Assembly: GCF_900114355.1 (NCBI RefSeq)
Contig: NZ_FOSS01000001.1
Coordinates: 707,386 to 771,385 of the forward strand
DNA: 64,000 nucleotides
Origin: Lysobacter sp. cf310
Lineage (GTDB): Bacteria; Pseudomonadota; Gammaproteobacteria; Xanthomonadales; Xanthomonadaceae
Direction: 5' to 3'
Part shown: one piece after another, positions 2,389 through 37,772 of the stretch
Position numbering within the stretch: position 1 is the first letter of the stretch
Layout: each line of letters starts with the position of its first letter
Notes under the pieces: generated by a model
Databases searched by the model: none
Seen by the model: the letters and a program-made list of their open reading frames with translations, nothing else
What the model was told of the DNA's origin: nothing
Made by a program: the position numbers and the translations under genes

Positions 2389-2411
2389 GCTGTCTGGGCT
2401 CGCTCTGCTGT

Positions 2412-2558
2412 GGGGTAGGAGCGGCGTGAGCCGCGACCACGCATCCCATTGACGACGCAAGGTGGACAAAGCAGGTCTGTTGCAATCGAAAGCCGAGACG
2501 AGCCGCAGCTTTCGTCTACGCCGATTGCCGCGATCGCGGCTTACGCCGCTCCTACCCC
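2412..2558. repeat. Inverted pair of GGGGTAGGAGCGGCGTGAGC repeats
   Basis: Arms 2412-2436 and 2534-2558 are 25-nt reverse complements with a single difference (a G-T wobble in RNA). Each arm is itself palindromic (GCGGCGTGAGCCGC). This is a REP-like dispersed element of the type common in xanthomonads. Together with the mscL hairpin it fills most of the 427-bp gap between mscL and the M28 peptidase; I see no gene there. Confidence 0.7.
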
Positions 2559-5488: not shown

Positions 5489-5691
5489 CAGCAAATTCCC
5501 CAACGCCCGCTGCGCGGGCGTTCGCCCCCTTCTCAAAGGGGGCTGGTGGGCGACCGGCCGTATCGAATTCGCCGGCAGGGGCTCACGGTTTCGAGAATGC
5601 CCGCCCCTTTAGAAGCCCGCGTGCCGACGCCGACCCAATCGCCCGCAAGCATTCCCCCCTTTGAAAAAGGGGGGCCAGGGGGGATTTGCTT
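5489..5691. repeat. Dispersed palindromic repeat, AAATCCCCC family (copy 2)
   Basis: The left end reads AGCAAATTCCCC (5490-5501) and the right end GGGGGGATTTGCT (to about 5691), with internal C-run/G-run hairpins at 5525-5542 and 5652-5674. It fills the 272-bp gap between the convergent RebB and RNA methyltransferase genes. No other feature is seen in that gap. Confidence 0.7.
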
Positions 5692-14083: not shown

Positions 14084-14106
14084 GCTTTCGACTCGTAGGA
14101 TGCGAT

Positions 14107-14163
14107 GAGCGCAGCGAACCGCATCGCCGCGATGCCGCGGCAGCGGTGCGGTTCGCTGCGCTC
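14107..14163. repeat. Palindromic repeat, GATGCGGTGAGC-related family
   Basis: Perfect 17-bp inverted arms at 14107-14123 (GAGCGCAGCGAACCGCA) and 14147-14163. The element is embedded in a longer imperfect palindrome that begins with the GTAGGATGCG sequence also found at 18297-18713. It lies between two convergent genes. Confidence 0.75.
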
Positions 14164-18284: not shown

Positions 18285-18296
18285 GCAGGCGCCGCA

Positions 18297-18713
18297 GGAT
18301 GCGGTGAGCCGCCAGGCGAACCGCGTCGGCGCGAAGCTACGGTGCGCGGCGCTCGGGTTGGATATCGGTAAAGATGCGGTTCGCCGCGCTCACCGCATCC
18401 TACGAGACGAAGTCACACACACGACACCGCAAGATGCGGTGAGCCGCCAGGCGAACCGCATCGTCGCGAAGCTATGGGGCGCGGCGCTCGGGCTGGATAT
18501 CCGCAACGATGCGGTTCGCTGCGCTCACCGCATCCTACGAGGGGCCGGCACGAGGCGCCGGTATAGCGTGCGGGTGCGAGCCGGGATGGCGCATTGCGAG
18601 ACCGCAGGATGCGGTGAGTCCTGCCACGAAGCGCGGCGTCGTCGCAGGCCGGCACCCAGCGCGCGCGCCGACCGTGCTCGATGACCGGGATTCGCTGGAC
18701 TCACCGCATCCTA
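18297..18713. repeat. Three consecutive palindromic elements, AGGATGCGGTGAGC family
   Basis: Element 1 has arms 18297-18326 and 18374-18401. Element 2 has arms 18431-18461 and 18509-18537. Element 3 has perfect 15-bp arms 18606-18620 and 18698-18712. Elements 1 and 2 also share their ~50-bp centre (for example GCGCGGCGCTCGGG), so they are ~110-bp duplicates; element 3 shares only the arms. They take up most of the 529-bp gap between two convergent genes; no gene is seen there. Confidence 0.8.
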
Positions 18714-18813
18714 CGTGGGAGAGGAAGCGGCGCGGCATGCGGCCTTCGCGCTCACGGTGGCGCGAACGTCGCGCGATGCCGCGCGCGGCTGCGGGACCAA
18801 CGCGACGCTGGCG

Positions 18814-25548: not shown

Positions 25549-25576
25549 TGACGGATCGGGGCACCCCTAATATGTT
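25548..25576 (+). promoter_or_regulatory. Probable sigma-70 promoter of nrdAB
   Basis: TTGACG (25548-25553) and TATGTT (25571-25576) are separated by 17 bp, an optimal spacing. Transcription would start near 25583, directly before the cobalamin riboswitch. Both hexamers lie within or touch the NrdR-like boxes. Confidence 0.6.
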
Positions 25577-25580
25577 GTGC
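25565..25580 (+). promoter_or_regulatory. NrdR-like box 2
   Basis: CCCTAATATGTTGTGC matches the NrdR consensus at about 11 of 16 positions and covers the -10 hexamer. Exactly 16 bp separate it from box 1 (32 bp start to start, about three helical turns), which fits cooperative NrdR binding. Confidence 0.6.
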
Positions 25581-25581
25581 C

Positions 25582-25850
25582 CGTCGGTGCCGATCGCGAG
25601 ATCGGCTTAAAAGGGAAGCCGGTGCGGACCCGCCCCGAAAGGGCGGCGACAAAGCCGGCGCTGCCCCGCAGCGGTATGGGAAACGAACGCGGTCATTGCA
25701 CTGGGCGCCCTGCGCCTGGGAAGCGGCCGCCAGTAGGAGAAGCAGGAGTGAGCGGAGAGAAGTGAGTGGTGAGCGGTTCGGTACTCGCTCCTCACTTCTC
25801 CCCGCTCACTTCTGGCTTCAAGTCCCGAGCCCGAAGACCTGCCGACAGCC
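25582..25850 (+). ncRNA. Cobalamin riboswitch upstream of nrdAB
   Basis: The conserved AdoCbl aptamer blocks appear in order: AAAAGGGAAGCCGGTG, GCCGGCGCTGCCCCGCAGCGG, GGGAAACGAA, CACTG, GGGAAG, CCAGTAGG, and the B12 box AGCCCGAAGACCTGCC (25828-25843). Between CCAGTAGGAGA and the B12 box sits an enlarged ~75-nt hairpin arm derived from a dispersed repeat. Binding of adenosylcobalamin should lower expression of the B12-independent class Ia ribonucleotide reductase. The remaining ~250-nt leader to the nrdA ATG holds hairpins (for example perfect 10-bp stem 26009-26018/26022-26031). Confidence 0.92.
25741..25813. repeat. Palindromic repeat (GAGAAGTGAGCG family) inside the riboswitch arm
   Basis: Nested perfect stems: 25747-25755/25802-25810 (9 bp), 25757-25766/25791-25800 (10 bp) and 25771-25775/25786-25790 (5 bp). 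The sequence words (AGAAGTGAG, GGAGTGAGCG, CGCTCCTCACTTCT) are those of the palindromes at 29742-29839 and 37683-37772. It replaces the short arm seen at the same place in the metE riboswitch. Confidence 0.8.
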
Positions 25851-26101
25851 GCGCGTCGCACACCGCGCGGTACCGGCTCAGGAGTCTTCGGGGGAAGACG
25901 GCCGGTGTCGCCCCGCCACGGTTCGCCGTCGCGGTCCGCGGGCCGTCTCGGCCTGCGCGACACCCTGTCGTCATCCTCGAACACTTCGCGCCCGCGGGGG
26001 CGCAAGCCGCAACGCCGACCCTCGGCGTTGCGTCCTGCGTCCGCGCACGTCGGCCCTCGTGGGAAGGCCGGCGACCCGTGCGCCCACGCATCGGAGCCCC
26101 T

Positions 26102-28570
26102 ATGACCACTACCACCGAAGCGCCCGCCGTTGCGAGCACCTCCCCCGCCCCCGCCCAGGCGCCCGCGCGCCAGCCCGACGCCACGCCCGGCTTCGCCCTG
26201 ACCCCGCCGGCCGCCAACCTCACCATGAGCGTGACCAAGCGCAGCGGACGCCGCGAACCGGTCGACCTCAACAAGATCGTGCGCGCGGTCACCCGCTGCG
26301 GCGAGGACCTGTACGCGGTCGATCCGATGCGCGTGGCCACCCGCACCATCTCCGGCCTGTACGACGGCGCGACCACGCGCGAGCTGGACGAACTGTCGAT
26401 CCGCACCGCCGCCCTGCTCACCGCCGAGGAGCCCGAGTACGGCCGCCTCGCCGCGCGCCTGCTCAGCAACGTGATCGAGAAGGAAGTCGCCGGCATCGAG
26501 ATCCACGCGTTCTCGCAGTCGGTCGTGCGCGGCCACGAGCTGGGCCTGATCAACGACCGCCTGCTGACTTTCGTGCAAGCCAACGCGCGCAAGCTCAACG
26601 ACGCCATCGACCGCAGCCTGGACGCGCGCTTCGACTACTTCGGCCTGCGCACCCTGTACGACCGCTACCTGCTGCGCCACCCGACCGCGCGCACCGTGAT
26701 CGAGACCCCGCAGCAGTTCTTCCTGCGCATCGCCTGCGCCCTCAGCGAAGACGTCGGCGACGCGCTCGCGCTGTACCGCCGCATGGCCCAGCTCGACTAC
26801 ATCCCGTCCTCGCCGACCCTGTTCAACGCCGGCACCACCCACGAGCAGCTGTCGAGCTGCTTCCTGCTCGATTCGCCCGACGATTCGCTGGAAGCGATCT
26901 ACAAGCGCTACATGGACGTGGCCAAGCTCAGCAAGTTCAGCGGCGGCATCGGCCTGAGCTACACGCGCATCCGCTCGCGCGGCTCGCTGATCCGTTCCAC
27001 CAACGGCCTCAGCAACGGCATCGTGCCCTGGCTGAAGACGCTGGATGCGTCGGTGGCGGCGGTCAATCAGGGCGGCAAGCGCAAGGGCGCGGCCTGCGTG
27101 TACCTGGAGCCCTGGCACGCCGACGTCGAGGAGTTCCTGGAACTGCGCGACAACACCGGCGACGAAGCGCGCCGCACCCACAACCTCAACCTGGCCAACT
27201 GGATTCCCGACGAATTCATGCGCCGCGTCGAAGCCGACGCCGAGTGGTCGCTGTTCGACCCGGCCAAGGTGCCGCAGCTGACCGACCTGTGGGGCGAGTC
27301 CTTCGACCGCGCCTACCACGCCGCCGAAGCGGCCGGCCTTGCGGTCAAGAAGGTCAAGGCGCGCGACATCTACGGCCGGATGATGCGCACCCTGGCGCAG
27401 ACCGGCAACGGCTGGATGAACTTCAAGGACAAGTCCAACCGCGCGTCCAACCAGACCCTGCGCGACGGTAACGTCATCCACCTGTCCAACCTGTGCACCG
27501 AGATCCTCGAGGTCACCTCGCAGGACGAGACCGCGGTGTGCAACCTGGGCTCGATCAATCTCTCGCACCATGTCGAGATGTACGAAGACGGCAAGGGCGC
27601 CTTCGATTTCGACAAGCTGGCCGAAACCGTGCGCCTGGCCGTGCGCCAGCTCGACCGCGTGATCGATCTGAACTTCTACCCGATCGAGACCGCGCGCCGC
27701 GCCAATCTGAAGTGGCGCCCGGTCGGCCTGGGCACCATGGGCCTGCAGGACGTGTTCTTCAAGCTGCGCCTGGCCTTCGACTCCGAGCCGGCGCGCAAGC
27801 TGGCCCAGGAAATCGCCGAGGCGATCTACTTCCACGCCCTGTCGGCCTCGAACGAACTGGCGATGGAGCACGGCAGGCACCCGTCCTTCGACGACACCCG
27901 CGCCTCGATCGGCGAGCTGCAGTTCGAAGCCTGGGGCGTGACCCCGTCGCAGCCCGAGCGCTGGGACGGCCTGCGCCAGCGCATCGCCGAGCACGGCTTG
28001 CGCAACTCGCTGCTGATCGCGATCGCGCCGACCGCGACCATCGCCTCGATCGCCGGCTGCTACGAATGCATCGAGCCGCAGGTGTCCAACCTGTTCAAGC
28101 GCGAGACCCTGTCGGGCGACTTCCTGGTGGTCAACAAGTACCTGGTCGAGGAGCTCAAGAAGCTCGGCCTGTGGACCGCCGAGATGCGCGACCGCATCAA
28201 GATGGCCGAGGGTTCGATCCAGTCCGTGCACGAGGTGCCCGAGTCGCTGCGCCAGATCTACCGCACCGCCTGGGAACTGCCGATGCGCTCGCTGATCGAC
28301 ATGGCCGCCGAACGCGGCGCCTACATCGACCAGAGCCAGTCGCTGAACCTGTTCATCGAGAGCCCGAACATCGGCCAGCTCAGCTCGATGTACATGTACG
28401 CCTGGAAGAAGGGCCTGAAGACCACCTACTACCTGCGTTCGCGCCCGGCCACCAAGATCGCCAAGAGCACGGTCAGCGCGCCGGTCGCGGCGCCCAAGCC
28501 GGAGTACACCCAGGACGAGGCGATCGCCTGTTCGCTGGAAAACCCCGAATCCTGCGAAGCCTGCCAGTAA
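26102..28570 (+). CDS. nrdA: Class Ia ribonucleoside-diphosphate reductase, alpha subunit
   Basis: 822 residues. It reduces ribonucleoside diphosphates to deoxyribonucleotides with the NrdB radical subunit. An N-terminal ATP-cone (about residues 45-135, MSVTKRSGRREPVDLNKIVR) gives dATP feedback. Active-site cysteines are visible: C253 (LSSCFLL) and C480 (AVCNLGSINL) as the redox pair, and C465 (NLCTEI) as the thiyl radical site. The C-terminal swinging pair is C818/C821 (SCEACQ). A ~40-residue Ala/Pro-rich extension precedes the cone. The ATG at 26102 ends the riboswitch leader; nrdB follows 153 bp on. Confidence 0.96.
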   Translation: MTTTTEAPAVASTSPAPAQAPARQPDATPGFALTPPAANLTMSVTKRSGRREPVDLNKIVRAVTRCGEDLYAVDPMRVATRTISGLYDGATTRELDELSIRTAALLTAEEPEYGRLAARLLSNVIEKEVAGIEIHAFSQSVVRGHELGLINDRLLTFVQANARKLNDAIDRSLDARFDYFGLRTLYDRYLLRHPTARTVIETPQQFFLRIACALSEDVGDALALYRRMAQLDYIPSSPTLFNAGTTHEQLSSCFLLDSPDDSLEAIYKRYMDVAKLSKFSGGIGLSYTRIRSRGSLIRSTNGLSNGIVPWLKTLDASVAAVNQGGKRKGAACVYLEPWHADVEEFLELRDNTGDEARRTHNLNLANWIPDEFMRRVEADAEWSLFDPAKVPQLTDLWGESFDRAYHAAEAAGLAVKKVKARDIYGRMMRTLAQTGNGWMNFKDKSNRASNQTLRDGNVIHLSNLCTEILEVTSQDETAVCNLGSINLSHHVEMYEDGKGAFDFDKLAETVRLAVRQLDRVIDLNFYPIETARRANLKWRPVGLGTMGLQDVFFKLRLAFDSEPARKLAQEIAEAIYFHALSASNELAMEHGRHPSFDDTRASIGELQFEAWGVTPSQPERWDGLRQRIAEHGLRNSLLIAIAPTATIASIAGCYECIEPQVSNLFKRETLSGDFLVVNKYLVEELKKLGLWTAEMRDRIKMAEGSIQSVHEVPESLRQIYRTAWELPMRSLIDMAAERGAYIDQSQSLNLFIESPNIGQLSSMYMYAWKKGLKTTYYLRSRPATKIAKSTVSAPVAAPKPEYTQDEAIACSLENPESCEACQ

Positions 28571-28723: not shown

Positions 28724-29740
28724 ATGTCCCTCGCCACGCCCCGCCTGCTCGACCCCGGTTTCGATCTCACCCTGCGGCCGATGCGCTATCCGCATTTCTA
28801 CGAGATGTACCGCGACGCGATCCGCAACACCTGGACCGTCGAAGAGGTCGATTTCTCGCAGGACGTCAACGACCTCAAGCACAAGTTCGGTCCGGCCGAG
28901 CGCCACCTGGTCGAACGCCTGGTCGCGTTCTTCGCCACCGGCGACAGCATCGTCGCCAACAACCTGGTGCTGAACCTGTACCAGCACATCAACGCGCCCG
29001 AGGCGCGCATGTACCTGTCGAGGCAGCTGTACGAGGAAGCGCTGCACGTGCAGTTCTACCTGACCCTGCTCGATACCTACCTGCCCGACCCGAACGAGCG
29101 CGCCAAGGCCTTCGACGCGGTCGAGAATATCCCCTCGATCCGGGCCAAGGCCGAGTTCTGCTTCCGCTGGATCGACTCGGTGCAGGACATCAAGCGCATC
29201 GAGACGCGCGAACAGCGCCGCCAGTTCCTGCTCAACCTGATCTGCTTCGCCGGCTGCATCGAGGGCCTGTTCTTCTTCGCCGCCTTCGCCTACGTCTATT
29301 ACCTGCGCTCGCGCGGTCTGCTCAACGGCCTGGCCTCGGGCACCAACTGGGTGTTCCGCGACGAAAGCTGCCACATGGCGTTCGCGTTCGAGGTGATCCG
29401 CACCGCGCGCGAGGAAGAGCCGGACCTGTTCGACGCCGACCTGCGTGCGCAGGTGGTCAGGATGTTCGAGGACGCGGTGGATTGCGAACTCCAGTTCGCC
29501 CAGGACGTGCTGTCCGGCGGCGTGGTCGGCCTGTCGCTGAAGGACATGCGCCAGTACCTGGAGTACTGCGCCGACCAGCGCATGGCCCAGCTGGGCATGC
29601 CCAAGCATTTCGGCGCCACCAACCCCTTCGGCTTCATGGACCTGCAGGACGTGCAGGAAGTGACCAACTTCTTCGAGCGCCGGGTCTCGGCGTATCAGGT
29701 CGGCGTGCAGGGCGAAGTGGCGTTCGACGAGGCATTTTGA
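28724..29740 (+). CDS. nrdB: Class Ia ribonucleoside-diphosphate reductase, beta subunit
   Basis: 338 residues, the metallo-radical R2 subunit that supplies the tyrosyl radical to NrdA. Ferritin-like helices with metal ligands can be seen in YEEALHVQFY (Glu, His), FCFRWIDSVQ, GCIEGLFFFAAFAYVYYL (Glu) and FRDESCHMAFAFEV (Glu, His). The C-terminal tail that docks on NrdA ends GEVAFDEAF. The ATG at 28724 follows CAAGGAAAT. It shares the riboswitch/NrdR-controlled transcript with nrdA. Confidence 0.95.
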   Translation: MSLATPRLLDPGFDLTLRPMRYPHFYEMYRDAIRNTWTVEEVDFSQDVNDLKHKFGPAERHLVERLVAFFATGDSIVANNLVLNLYQHINAPEARMYLSRQLYEEALHVQFYLTLLDTYLPDPNERAKAFDAVENIPSIRAKAEFCFRWIDSVQDIKRIETREQRRQFLLNLICFAGCIEGLFFFAAFAYVYYLRSRGLLNGLASGTNWVFRDESCHMAFAFEVIRTAREEEPDLFDADLRAQVVRMFEDAVDCELQFAQDVLSGGVVGLSLKDMRQYLEYCADQRMAQLGMPKHFGATNPFGFMDLQDVQEVTNFFERRVSAYQVGVQGEVAFDEAF

Positions 29741-29741
29741 A

Positions 29742-29839
29742 GCAGAAGTGAGAAGCGAGAAGCGAGGAGCCAGCAAGAGCGCCTCATCCCCTCCCTCCTG
29801 CCTTCGCTCACTCCTCACTCCTCCACGCTCACTCCTAGC
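29742..29839. repeat. Palindromic repeat, GAGAAGTGAGCG family
   Basis: The left part reads AGAAGTGAGAAGCGAGAAGC and the right part CTCACTCCTCACTCCTCCAC, matching the arms of the 37683-37772 element. It fills the gap between nrdB and the thioesterase gene and ends 4 bp before the latter's ATG, so it replaces any normal ribosome-binding site there. Confidence 0.7.
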
Positions 29840-30285: not shown

Positions 30286-30311
30286 CATCGCTTCATAAAG
30301 ATAAAGCGATG
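30286..30311. promoter_or_regulatory. Inverted repeat in the metE 5' region
   Basis: Perfect 8-bp arms CATCGCTT (30286-30293) and AAGCGATG (30304-30311) around an A/T-rich centre. It could be an operator for a methionine-cycle regulator or an RNA hairpin before the aptamer; I cannot tell which. Confidence 0.35.
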
Positions 30312-30317
30312 TGACAA

Positions 30318-30508
30318 GACGCCGCCGGTTCGCGCCGGCGACGGCTAGAGGGAATCCGGTACGGACTCGCGTCCAATTCCGGAGCTGCCCCGCAGCGGTG
30401 TAGGGAACGACCTCCGTCAGGCACTGGGTGCGAGCCCGGGAAGCGACGGACAGTAGGCGGCGTCGAACGGCGCCATGCCCCAAGCCCGAAGACCTGCCAT
30501 GACCGGAG
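30318..30508 (+). ncRNA. Cobalamin riboswitch upstream of metE
   Basis: Conserved blocks in order: AGAGGGAATCCGGTACGG, GGAGCTGCCCCGCAGCGG, AGGGAACGA, GGCACTGG, GGGAAGC, ACAGTAGG, a short variable arm (GGCGTCGAACGGCGCC) and the B12 box AAGCCCGAAGACCTGCC (to 30498). When cobalamin is present it should shut off the B12-independent methionine synthase. In the leader, GGCAGGTC (30618-30625) is the exact complement of GACCTGCC in the B12 box, a candidate alternative pairing. Confidence 0.95.
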
Positions 30509-30723
30509 GGTTCGCCCTCCGTCCGACTCCGGCCCGCTGGCCGGCGCCGGCGCGCGGCTGCGGCCGCCCGTCGCGCCTGTTGGTGGAGCCGGTTCGCCCG
30601 CGGGGGCGAAGGTCGAAGGCAGGTCGTGCTCCGGCGTCGCCGCATCCGCGGCGGGCGGTCGCGCGTGCGTACCCGCCTTCCTTCGTTGCCCTGCTCATGC
30701 CCACACGCATCGCAGGAGACATC

Positions 30724-33003
30724 ATGATCAGCGTTACCCACCTCGGCTTCCCGCGCATCGGCGCGCGACGCGAGCTCAAGCAGGCCCTGGAATCGTTCTG
30801 GAAAGGCGAGACCGCGGCCGGCGATCTGCACGACACCGCACGCACGCTGCGCGCCCGGCACTGGACGCTGGCGCGCGACGCCGGCGCCGACGTCGTGCCT
30901 TGCAACGACTTCTCGCTCTACGACCACGTGCTGGACACCGCCGTCCTGTTCGACGCGGTGCCCGCGCCCTACCGCGAGACGCTCGACGCCGATCCGCTGG
31001 CCGGCTACTTCGCGCTCGCGCGCGGCCTGCAGGACGCGCGCCACGATCTGCGCGCCCTGGAAATGACCAAGTGGTTCGACACCAACTACCACTACCTGGT
31101 GCCGCAGTTCGAACCCGATCAGCGCTTCGCGCTGCGCGGCGACAAGCCGCTGGCCGAACTCGCCGAAGCGCAGGCGCTGGGCCTGCAGGCACGACCGGTG
31201 CTGCTGGGGCCGGTGTCGCTGCTCAAGCTCGGCAAGCGCCGCGACGGCGGCGATCCGCGCGCGCTGCTGGACGCGCTGCTGCCGGCCTACGCCGAACTGC
31301 TGACGCGGCTGAAGGCGGCCGGCGCGCAATGGGTGCAATTGGACGAGCCCTGCCTCGCGCTGGATCTCGATGACGACGATCGCAAGGCCTATCGTCGCGC
31401 CTACGACGCGCTGGCCGGCGTCGACGCGCCCGCGCGCCTGCTCGCCAGCTACTTCGGCGGGCTAGGCGACAACGCCGAACTGGCCGCCGCCCTGCCCGTG
31501 CAGGCCCTGCACCTGGACCTGGTGCGCGCGCCCGGCCAGCTCGAAGCGCTGCTGCCCAAGCTGCCCGAAGACCGCGCGCTCAGTCTGGGCGTGGTCGACG
31601 GCCGCAACATCTGGCGCGCCGATCTCGACGCCGCGCTCAGTCTGGCGCGCCGCGCCGGCACGCGCGCGCAGTGGCTGGCGCCGTCGTGCTCGCTGCTGCA
31701 CGTGCCGATCGACCTGGGCCTGGAACGCAAGCTGCCGCCGCCCTTGCAGCAGTGGATGGCCTACGCCAGGCAGAAGATCGAGGAACTGCGTCTGCTCGCC
31801 GACACCCTGGCCGACGACGGCCGCGCCGCGGGCGCTTTGAGCGCGGCCGCGAGCGCGCGCGCCGCGCGCCTGGCCTCGCCGCTGCTGCGCGACGCCCAGG
31901 TGCGCGCCAAGCTGGCTGCGGTGGTGCCGGCGATGACCCAGCGCGATTCGGCGTATGCGCGGCGCGCGCAGGTGCAGGCGCAACGTCTGAAGCTGCCCGA
32001 CTTCCCGACCACCACGATCGGCTCGTTCCCACAGACCTCGCAGGTGCGCCAGGCGCGCGCCGAGCACAAGGCCGGGCGCCTGGACGACGCCGGGTATCGG
32101 ACCTTCCTCGAGCGCGAGACCGAGCTGTGCCTGCGCGAACAGGAAGCGCTGGGCCTGGACGTGCTGGTGCACGGCGAGTTCGAGCGCAACGACATGGTCG
32201 AGTACTTCGGCGAGCAGCTGTCCGGCTTCGCCTTTACCGCCCACGGCTGGGTGCAGAGCTACGGCTCGCGCTGCGTGAAGCCGCCGGTGCTGTACGGCGA
32301 CGTCGCCCGCCCGCGCGCAATGACGGTGGACTGGGCGCGCTACGCGCAGTCGCTGACGCCGCGCCCGGTCAAGGGCATGCTCACCGGGCCGGTCACGATC
32401 CTGCAGTGGTCGTTCGTGCGCGACGACCAGCCGCGCGCCGACACCTGCCGTCAGATCGCCCTGGCCCTGCGCGAGGAAGTGCTGGACCTGGAGGCGGCCG
32501 GCATCGCGGTGATCCAGATCGACGAACCGGCGCTGCGCGAAGGCCTGCCGCTGCGCCGCGCCGACTGGCCGGCCTACCTGGCCTGGGCCGGCGAAGCCTT
32601 CCGCCTGGCTGCCAGCGGCGTCGACGACGCCACTCAGATCCACACCCACATGTGCTACGCCGAGTTCAACGACATCATCGAGGCGGTCGCCGCATTGGAC
32701 GCCGACGTGATCTCGATCGAGACCTCGCGCTCGCGCATGGAGCTGCTGGACGCGTTCGTGCGCTACCGCTATCCCAACGGCATCGGCCCCGGCGTCTACG
32801 ACATCCACTCGCCGCGCGTGCCCAGCGTGGACGAGATGCGCGAACTGCTGGACAAGGCCCTGGACGTGCTCACGCCCGCGCAGTTGTGGGTCAATCCGGA
32901 CTGCGGCCTCAAGACCCGCGGTTGGCCGGAGGTGCGCACCGCGCTGAAGGCGATGGTGCAGGCGGCGCAGGGTTTGCGCGAGTCGGCGACTGCGGCGGTT
33001 TGA
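30724..33003 (+). CDS. metE: B12-independent methionine synthase
   Basis: 759 residues, the normal MetE size. It transfers a methyl group from methyl-tetrahydropteroyltriglutamate to homocysteine. Two barrel halves are visible, the N-terminal opening with THLGFPRIGARRELKQALE. Zinc/homocysteine ligands in the C-terminal half include H642 and C644 (THTHMCYAEF) and C727 (NPDCGLKTRGW). FPTTTIGSFPQT starts the catalytic barrel. The ATG at 30724 follows AGGAGA. Control is by the cobalamin riboswitch. Its last 33 bases are copied in a tandem duplication downstream. Confidence 0.97.
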   Translation: MISVTHLGFPRIGARRELKQALESFWKGETAAGDLHDTARTLRARHWTLARDAGADVVPCNDFSLYDHVLDTAVLFDAVPAPYRETLDADPLAGYFALARGLQDARHDLRALEMTKWFDTNYHYLVPQFEPDQRFALRGDKPLAELAEAQALGLQARPVLLGPVSLLKLGKRRDGGDPRALLDALLPAYAELLTRLKAAGAQWVQLDEPCLALDLDDDDRKAYRRAYDALAGVDAPARLLASYFGGLGDNAELAAALPVQALHLDLVRAPGQLEALLPKLPEDRALSLGVVDGRNIWRADLDAALSLARRAGTRAQWLAPSCSLLHVPIDLGLERKLPPPLQQWMAYARQKIEELRLLADTLADDGRAAGALSAAASARAARLASPLLRDAQVRAKLAAVVPAMTQRDSAYARRAQVQAQRLKLPDFPTTTIGSFPQTSQVRQARAEHKAGRLDDAGYRTFLERETELCLREQEALGLDVLVHGEFERNDMVEYFGEQLSGFAFTAHGWVQSYGSRCVKPPVLYGDVARPRAMTVDWARYAQSLTPRPVKGMLTGPVTILQWSFVRDDQPRADTCRQIALALREEVLDLEAAGIAVIQIDEPALREGLPLRRADWPAYLAWAGEAFRLAASGVDDATQIHTHMCYAEFNDIIEAVAALDADVISIETSRSRMELLDAFVRYRYPNGIGPGVYDIHSPRVPSVDEMRELLDKALDVLTPAQLWVNPDCGLKTRGWPEVRTALKAMVQAAQGLRESATAAV

Positions 33004-33424
33004 CGTCGAGCTCGAAAGCAGCCCCTCATCAGGTTCCCCCCTTTGAAAAAGGGGGGCCAGGGGGGGATTTGCTTTTGGCCGGTGCCAACAGCAACAGCAA
33101 ATCCCCCGGCGCCGCTGGCCACGAATCGACATCGACTGACATGAGGCGCCCGCCCCCTTTTGCAAAGGGGGCGATGGGGATGGGGTAGGCAGTGCAAGGT
33201 TTGCGCGAGTCGGCGACTGCGGCGGTTTGACGTCGAGCTCGAAAGCAGCCCCTCATCAGGTTCCCCCCCTTTGAAAAAGGGGGGCCAGGGGGGGGATTTG
33301 CTTTTGGCCGGTGCCAACAGCAACAGCAAATCCCCCGGCGCCGCTAGTAACGAATCGACATCGACTCGCACAGGGCGCCCGCCTCCTTTTGCAAAGGGGC
33401 GATGGGGAACGGGCTAGAGAAATC
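32971..33424. repeat. 227-bp tandem duplication including the metE 3' end and AAATCCCCC palindromes
   Basis: GGTTTGCGCGAGTCGGCGAC begins at 32971 (inside metE) and again at 33198, an offset of 227 bp. The copies run through the metE stop, a TCAGGTTCCCCC/GGGGGGCCAGG hairpin, the CAACAGCAAATCCCC segment and a CTTTTGCAAAGG hairpin. Divergence is low and mostly near the far end. It fills the 483-bp gap before the convergent gapA. Confidence 0.85.
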
Positions 33425-37682: not shown

Positions 37683-37772
37683 AGCGAGAAGTGAGCGTGG
37701 AGGAGTGAGGAGCGAGTAAGTGCAATGCTTGCTTACGCTCACTCCTCACTCCTCCACGCTCACCCCTCGCTT
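37683..37772. repeat. Long palindromic repeat, GAGAAGTGAGCG family
   Basis: The arm at about 37684-37720 (GCGAGAAGTGAGCGTGGAGG, then AGTGAGGAGCGAGTAAG) is nearly the reverse complement of 37728-37771 (CTTGCTTACGCTCACTCC, then TCACTCCTCCACGCTCACCC). The hairpin would have ~35 bp with a ~7-nt loop. It separates the molybdopterin-domain gene from modA and could attenuate read-through. Confidence 0.8.

Follow-up and report, generated by a model that had tools for sequence, protein, structure and literature searches.

How does a dispersed repeat come to form an arm of a structured regulatory RNA? This question is raised by a window of 64,000 nucleotides (nt) from Lysobacter sp. cf310 (contig NZ_FOSS01000001.1, positions 707,386 to 771,385), on whose forward strand cmscan finds a full-length match to the cobalamin riboswitch family RF00174 at 25568-25860 (96.4 bits against a cut-off of 31.5 bits, model positions 1-189). 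We assign this aptamer to the cobalamin class by the RF00174 match and by its context, as it precedes the B12-related gene nrdA. One of its arms is a palindromic repeat of which copies are scattered over the genome. We will argue that the tip of stem P12, both in this riboswitch and in the one upstream of metE, is probably a tolerant slot, open to dispersed palindromic repeats that come in, drop out, and displace one another.

The largest insertion in the nrdA riboswitch falls between model positions 151 and 152. It is an 81-nt nested hairpin with GAAGC...GCTTC ends at 25739-25819 (+ strand), delimited from the model insert, family membership, and the fold; an earlier note on this DNA had described a nested hairpin of ~70 nt at 25741-25813, and the hairpin stands while its extent has become slightly wider. 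The arm is predicted to be self-contained, with 0.9995 of its pairing probability in within-arm pairs. A hairpin at model 151/152 lies past the P8 arm (J8/12) and ahead of the B12 box, and by comparison with the btuB description in PMC5359240, the site would be the optional stem P12. The second cobalamin riboswitch (30300-30515, + strand, RF00174, 68.1 bits), upstream of a gene whose name metE is taken from the earlier note, has a 16-nt insertion at the same model place; it forms a short hairpin there, just as that note had said. Another variable stretch of the nrdA riboswitch, in the P4 loop (about 25623-25652), varies in length among species.

Is the arm truly a member of a repeat family? 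The earlier note had seen in it the same words as in the palindromes at 29742-29839 and 37683-37772, and the sequences bear this out: the complementarity between 25782-25817 and 37683-37718 amounts to 92% along 36 nt, and a BLAST search of the arm against its own genome yields 48 rows that merge into 30 places, with copies down to an expectation value (E) of 5e-12 over nearly the full length (the weakest place has E 0.35, and a few may be chance). The copies share a common grammar, in which a GGAGTGA-like heptad is followed by a GCGTGGA-like spacer, another two heptads, and a loop, after which comes the complement; judged by eye, the GAAGC/GCTTC ends are only loosely kept. A sequence-only profile built from 13 genomic copies, with the riboswitch arm excluded, gives the arm 54.4 bits versus 8.6 bits for the best shuffled arm of any genome (50 shuffles for each of 35 long nrdA arms). 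Both intergenic palindromes are among these 13 copies; the first (65.1 bits) lies immediately 3' of the nrdB stop codon, and the second (family covariance-model place G000:C6:745067-745158, G000 being this genome) immediately 3' of another stop codon, both on the + strand.

The likeness might be merely compositional, the product of a purine-rich strand and of palindromy as such. The repeat is indeed of low complexity, with its GARGTGA-like heptads, and shuffles that preserve the palindrome (one strand shuffled, palindrome rebuilt) climb to 40.9 bits. However, the trimmed hairpin scores 52.6 bits, a value reached by none of 1000 such shuffles and by none of 1000 strand-separate shuffles (maximum 25.4 bits). 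We give this explanation next to no credence: composition or chance as the source of the likeness is rejected by these shuffles, which did not keep the heptad period. The window's nrdA arm belongs to the dispersed repeat family of its genome and, beyond composition and palindromy, to the heptad palindromes of the genus. A covariance model of the family matches all 20 genus genomes, with at least 2 rows in G012 and up to at least 148 in G019, both strands counted.

Could the arm be an oddity of this one genome? That idea was rejected, as relatives also carry long arms. A riboswitch precedes nrdA in all 20 genus genomes; 17 of these have a long P12 in it, and three (G001, G002, and G014) a short one. 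The long forms score 63.8-97.5 bits and the short ones 100.4-107.2 bits; because all 20 pass the 31.5-bit cut-off, the conserved core appears to be unharmed, as the earlier note had supposed. Beyond the genus, NrdA matches were found in 95 of 119 sampled genomes (5 of the genus, 90 outside), and 40 upstream stretches were taken; a riboswitch scores above the cut-off in 37 of these, with a long P12 in nine and a short one in 28 (the state of G116 being judged by eye). Named NrdA loci, the best 80 of a longer list, were added. For 75 of them, core profiles matched the two halves of the riboswitch; P12 is long in 15, of which nine were not already among the sampled genomes and none comes from a record named Dyella, Rhodanobacter, or Luteibacter. 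The arm of L182, a Rhodanobacter metagenome-assembled genome, is intermediate (~79 nt) and longer than that of L116 (75 nt), which was counted as long; the gaps in L159, L171, and L186 arise because the 5' match stops early, and they do not enter the long count. Aligned across relatives, the slot thus varies in content: the arm is short in some, another copy of the window's repeat in others, and an unrelated repeat in still others, rather than one unrelated sequence of equal length throughout.

By kind, the occupants of P12 are the heptad 'GAGTGAG' repeat, relatives of 'GGAACGAG', and unrelated sequences of the repetitive extragenic palindromic (REP) type. With the 13-copy profile, 23 of the 35 long nrdA arms exceed the 8.6 bits of the best shuffled arm. 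The GGAACGAG type occupies P12 in G080, G132, L134, and L135, and the G080 arm matches at least 97 rows in its own genome and at least 37 in G132. REP-type pairs (GTAGGAGCGGCTT...AAGCCGC), the kind of palindrome linked to REP-associated tyrosine transposases (RAYTs), fill the slot in G066, G050, G039, and L129, and partially in L116, making up five of the 35 long arms. The G066 arm matches at least 8 rows in G066, at least 87 in G050, and at least 98 in G039 (as for G080, rows include both strands and the arm itself). The window's arm, on the other hand, is of another family: the heptad profile scores none of the REP-type arms above zero, and inspection by eye found no GTAGGAGCGGC-type REP core in the window's arm. 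As to whether a repeat had been inserted into the arm or had replaced it, which the earlier note had left as alternatives, inspection by eye suggests that this varies by case. The basal stem is apparently kept under REP-type inserts, whereas heptad-type inserts have in many cases taken over the larger part of the short hairpin. A REP-like inverted pair of the form GGTAGGAGCGGCGTGAGCCGCGA also occurs in the window (2407-2441 with 2529-2563) and resembles the P12 fillers of other genera.

Long arms might also have grown in place, short hairpins being lengthened through slippage and quasi-palindrome correction, with no repeat arriving from elsewhere. Such template-directed growth would suit arms that are near-perfect palindromes and change with compensation, and the long arms of G070, G037, and L139 match no repeat profile tried. 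Yet the window's arm matches copies elsewhere, including the spacer word between the heptads, and REP-type arms have tens of further matches in G050 and G039; we therefore regard growth in place as very improbable.

How often has the slot been filled or emptied? A tree of 89 NrdA proteins was drawn from the genus (20), the family (37), and the 80 named loci (32 of them). With 35 of the arms long and 54 short, it requires at least 16 changes, with 10 path-disjoint contrasts on starred branches. Coding L182 as long gives 17 changes and 11 contrasts, and coding L116 as short gives 15 and 10. The tree was quickly built, support is poor for 25 of the 86 inner branches, and NrdA may have followed a history of its own. 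In short, the core is conserved, unrelated families share the slot, and the tree shows filled arms interspersed with short ones; this pattern of presence and absence suggests that the repeats are mobile.

Comparisons between relatives point to exchange as well. The riboswitch core is identical at 206 of 209 positions between G000 and G013, at 198 of 206 between G000 and G012, and at 197 of 210 between G006 and G019, whereas the tips agree at only 52 of 73 (11 gap columns), 55 of 73 (20 gaps), and 62 of 80 (28 gaps), respectively. G000 and G019 lie near the repeat consensus (54.4 and 54.9 bits), and their partners lie far from it (G013 13.2, G012 20.9, and G006 11.5 bits). We read these tips as probably replaced by a fresh copy or converted to one, or else as remodelled fast. 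In five other pairs (G003/G004, G003/G009, G005/G018, G006/G016, and G007/G017), cores are 93-99% and tips 92-100% identical, with 0-4 gaps. The short arm of G014 retains only GAAGC-TT-GGCTTC and looks like the loss of a repeat, and those of G001 and G002 resemble the out-of-genus short arm of G024 and may represent an ancestral or re-imported state.

A bolder version of this reading makes P12 a docking site for hairpin-for-hairpin exchange, at which unrelated palindromic repeats replace the resident hairpin, perhaps on single-stranded or cruciform DNA, and supply riboswitch arms in continuing turnover. We hold it only tentatively, as possible but somewhat doubtful. With ~30 copies and an assumed half megabase or so of intergenic DNA, a target of 20 bases would receive a copy in roughly one genome per thousand, a rate so low that the site would have to be favoured, or conversion, retention, or selection would have to be at work.

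Selection leads to the most serious rival, namely functional recruitment: a long P12 would be favoured for slower folding or pausing, RNA stability, or protection from RNases, with repeats as a handy supply of hairpins. The repeated gains and the unrelated palindromes at the same place would fit this, and so would the pairing, which suits the tolerant-slot reading as well. When the 17 long genus arms are reduced to 15 by dropping the duplicates G008 and G011, 93.5% of cells pair, changes on both sides are seen in 14 pairs (of 25, or of 22 hairpin pairs), and the covariation score is reached by none of 500 shuffles. Hairpin pairing is thus maintained, which need not mean selected, because palindromes can self-correct and replacement brings in new matched arms; paired changes could likewise arise through copying between arms. 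Moreover, P12 is short in three of the 20 genus members, in 28 of the 37 out-of-genus riboswitches, and in this genome's own metE riboswitch, and the spacer 3' of nrdB, outside any riboswitch, shows similar exchange. On balance, we think recruitment rather unlikely.

Does the slot behave alike in the second riboswitch? This was picked in relatives by its proximity to nrdA, in 18 of the 20 genus genomes, and there the label metE is given by position alone. Its P12 matches the profile in seven of the 18 (12-69 bits, with 69 in G019) and is short in six, including this genome's. A long arm without a profile match is present in G006, G007, G008, and G018, and a shortened form of the G009 arm in G015; the slot is filled in G003 and short in its close relative G011. 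The genus holds 98 RF00174 matches in total, 60 of which are neither the nrdA riboswitch nor its neighbour. In 43 of these 60 (all those of at least 238 nt and some shorter ones), no profile match above 3 bits was found, and a repeat arm as a feature of all cobalamin riboswitches is thus unsupported. Other Rfam RNAs that might contain a repeat were looked for as well: across 20 of this genome's repeat loci, flanks of 1.5 kb included, there were just the metE riboswitch and the small RNA sX13, neither overlapping the copy at its locus.

Critically speaking, several observations weigh against P12 as a slot visited by repeats. Nine of the 35 long arms have no positive profile score (the five REP-type arms, G070, G037, G115, and L139), three more score only 1.9-8.0 bits, and the G018 arm is equalled by one of its own 50 shuffles. 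For the G013 arm, the search of its own genome gives just three further places, all weak (E 0.001-0.08), which means that a repeat origin cannot be demonstrated for all occupants. One of the five covariation measures, that for further pair types, fails against the shuffles (141 of 500), and a long P12 in 17 of 20 genus members would also be expected from a selected function. The exchange in the nrdB 3' spacer means that exchange is not peculiar to riboswitches, so that transcripts probably have several tolerant sites, P12 among them.

Nonetheless, repeat arms are most likely tolerated passengers that extend P12, as judged from the sequences compared. A repeat transcript, being a long near-perfect palindrome, would fold as a hairpin that extends the short P12 or substitutes for it, and since each repeat is itself such a palindrome, the core would stay free to fold alongside. 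The repeats would move about either by being inserted and excised or through conversion of one copy by another, and most occupants would be neutral passengers with respect to B12 sensing.

The genes around the arm fit a familiar scheme. The open reading frame at 26102-28570 (+ strand, chosen start ATG at 26102, with an orthologue in all 20 genus genomes) is taken, in part from the earlier note, to be nrdA, encoding the large subunit of class Ia ribonucleotide reductase. The next one, at 28724-29740 (+ strand, 338 amino acids), is presumably nrdB, for the small subunit. The genome also encodes a class II reductase, NrdJ (582.5 bits against a curated cut-off of 399.95), an enzyme that depends on B12. 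With a class II NrdJ in the genome, a B12 riboswitch on the class Ia genes follows an ordinary, established logic.

Other repeats of the region deserve mention in their own right. The nrdB 3' spacer (29742-29839 and its orthologues L289-L306) was compared in 19 genomes, with G007 left out. Seven carry this repeat by profile, 10 carry another palindromic repeat by eye (CTCTCCCG...CGGGAGAGGGG), and one (G012) was left unassigned; the spacer measures 11 nt in G010. A second dispersed repeat, of the form CCCCCCTTTGAAAAAGGGGGGCCAGGGGG, occurs in the window at 287-318, 5652-5683, 33034-33065, and 33262-33293, partly inside larger direct repeats at 32946-33417, and a further family, CCGCAGGATGCGGTGAGCC...CGCATCCTACG, has near-tandem and inverted copies at 18292-18719 and 14087-14131. 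Among the named loci, the NrdA and riboswitch of L127, a record of the cyanobacterium Tolypothrix campylonemoides VB511288, group with Lysobacter-like sequences, and its contig is probably a contamination of that assembly.

How does this compare with known systems? Small palindromic repeats that enter functional sequence are also known among miniature inverted-repeat transposable element (MITE)-like repeats and Rickettsia palindromic elements, the latter reportedly occurring also in RNA genes, and the REP or bacterial interspersed mosaic element (BIME)-type palindromes have been met above in this very slot. A MITE is marked by terminal inverted repeats, a target-site duplication, and a cognate transposase; the ends of the present repeat are only loosely kept, and matches to Y1_Tnp occur in 19 of the 20 genus genomes and are absent in G009, which has at least 82 repeat rows. 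To our knowledge, the origin of 'variable insertions' in structured RNAs has seldom been traced. Riboswitches tolerate variable insertions that form stem-loops, according to PMC2258182, and PMC5359240 states that P12 is absent from the two crystallised adenosylcobalamin riboswitches and that its presence is uncorrelated with affinity. RF00174 itself has an optional P12 and 'variable insertions', and the nrdA arm resembles these as an insert at an optional peripheral stem. It differs in that the insert belongs to a dispersed genomic repeat and that occupants differ between close relatives. Variable riboswitch insertions are thus already known; on the other hand, the portions of the literature searched yielded no report of their origin from dispersed repeats, of such repeats forming or turning over as riboswitch arms, or, for MITE-like repeats and Rickettsia palindromic elements, of a repeat as the arm of a metabolite riboswitch.

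Close relatives within the genus offer natural long, short, and swapped versions of one and the same riboswitch, and the second riboswitch, found in 18 of 20 genomes, serves as an internal control. Because of this, it becomes possible to test directly how a large peripheral hairpin affects B12 sensing and how small palindromic repeats move.
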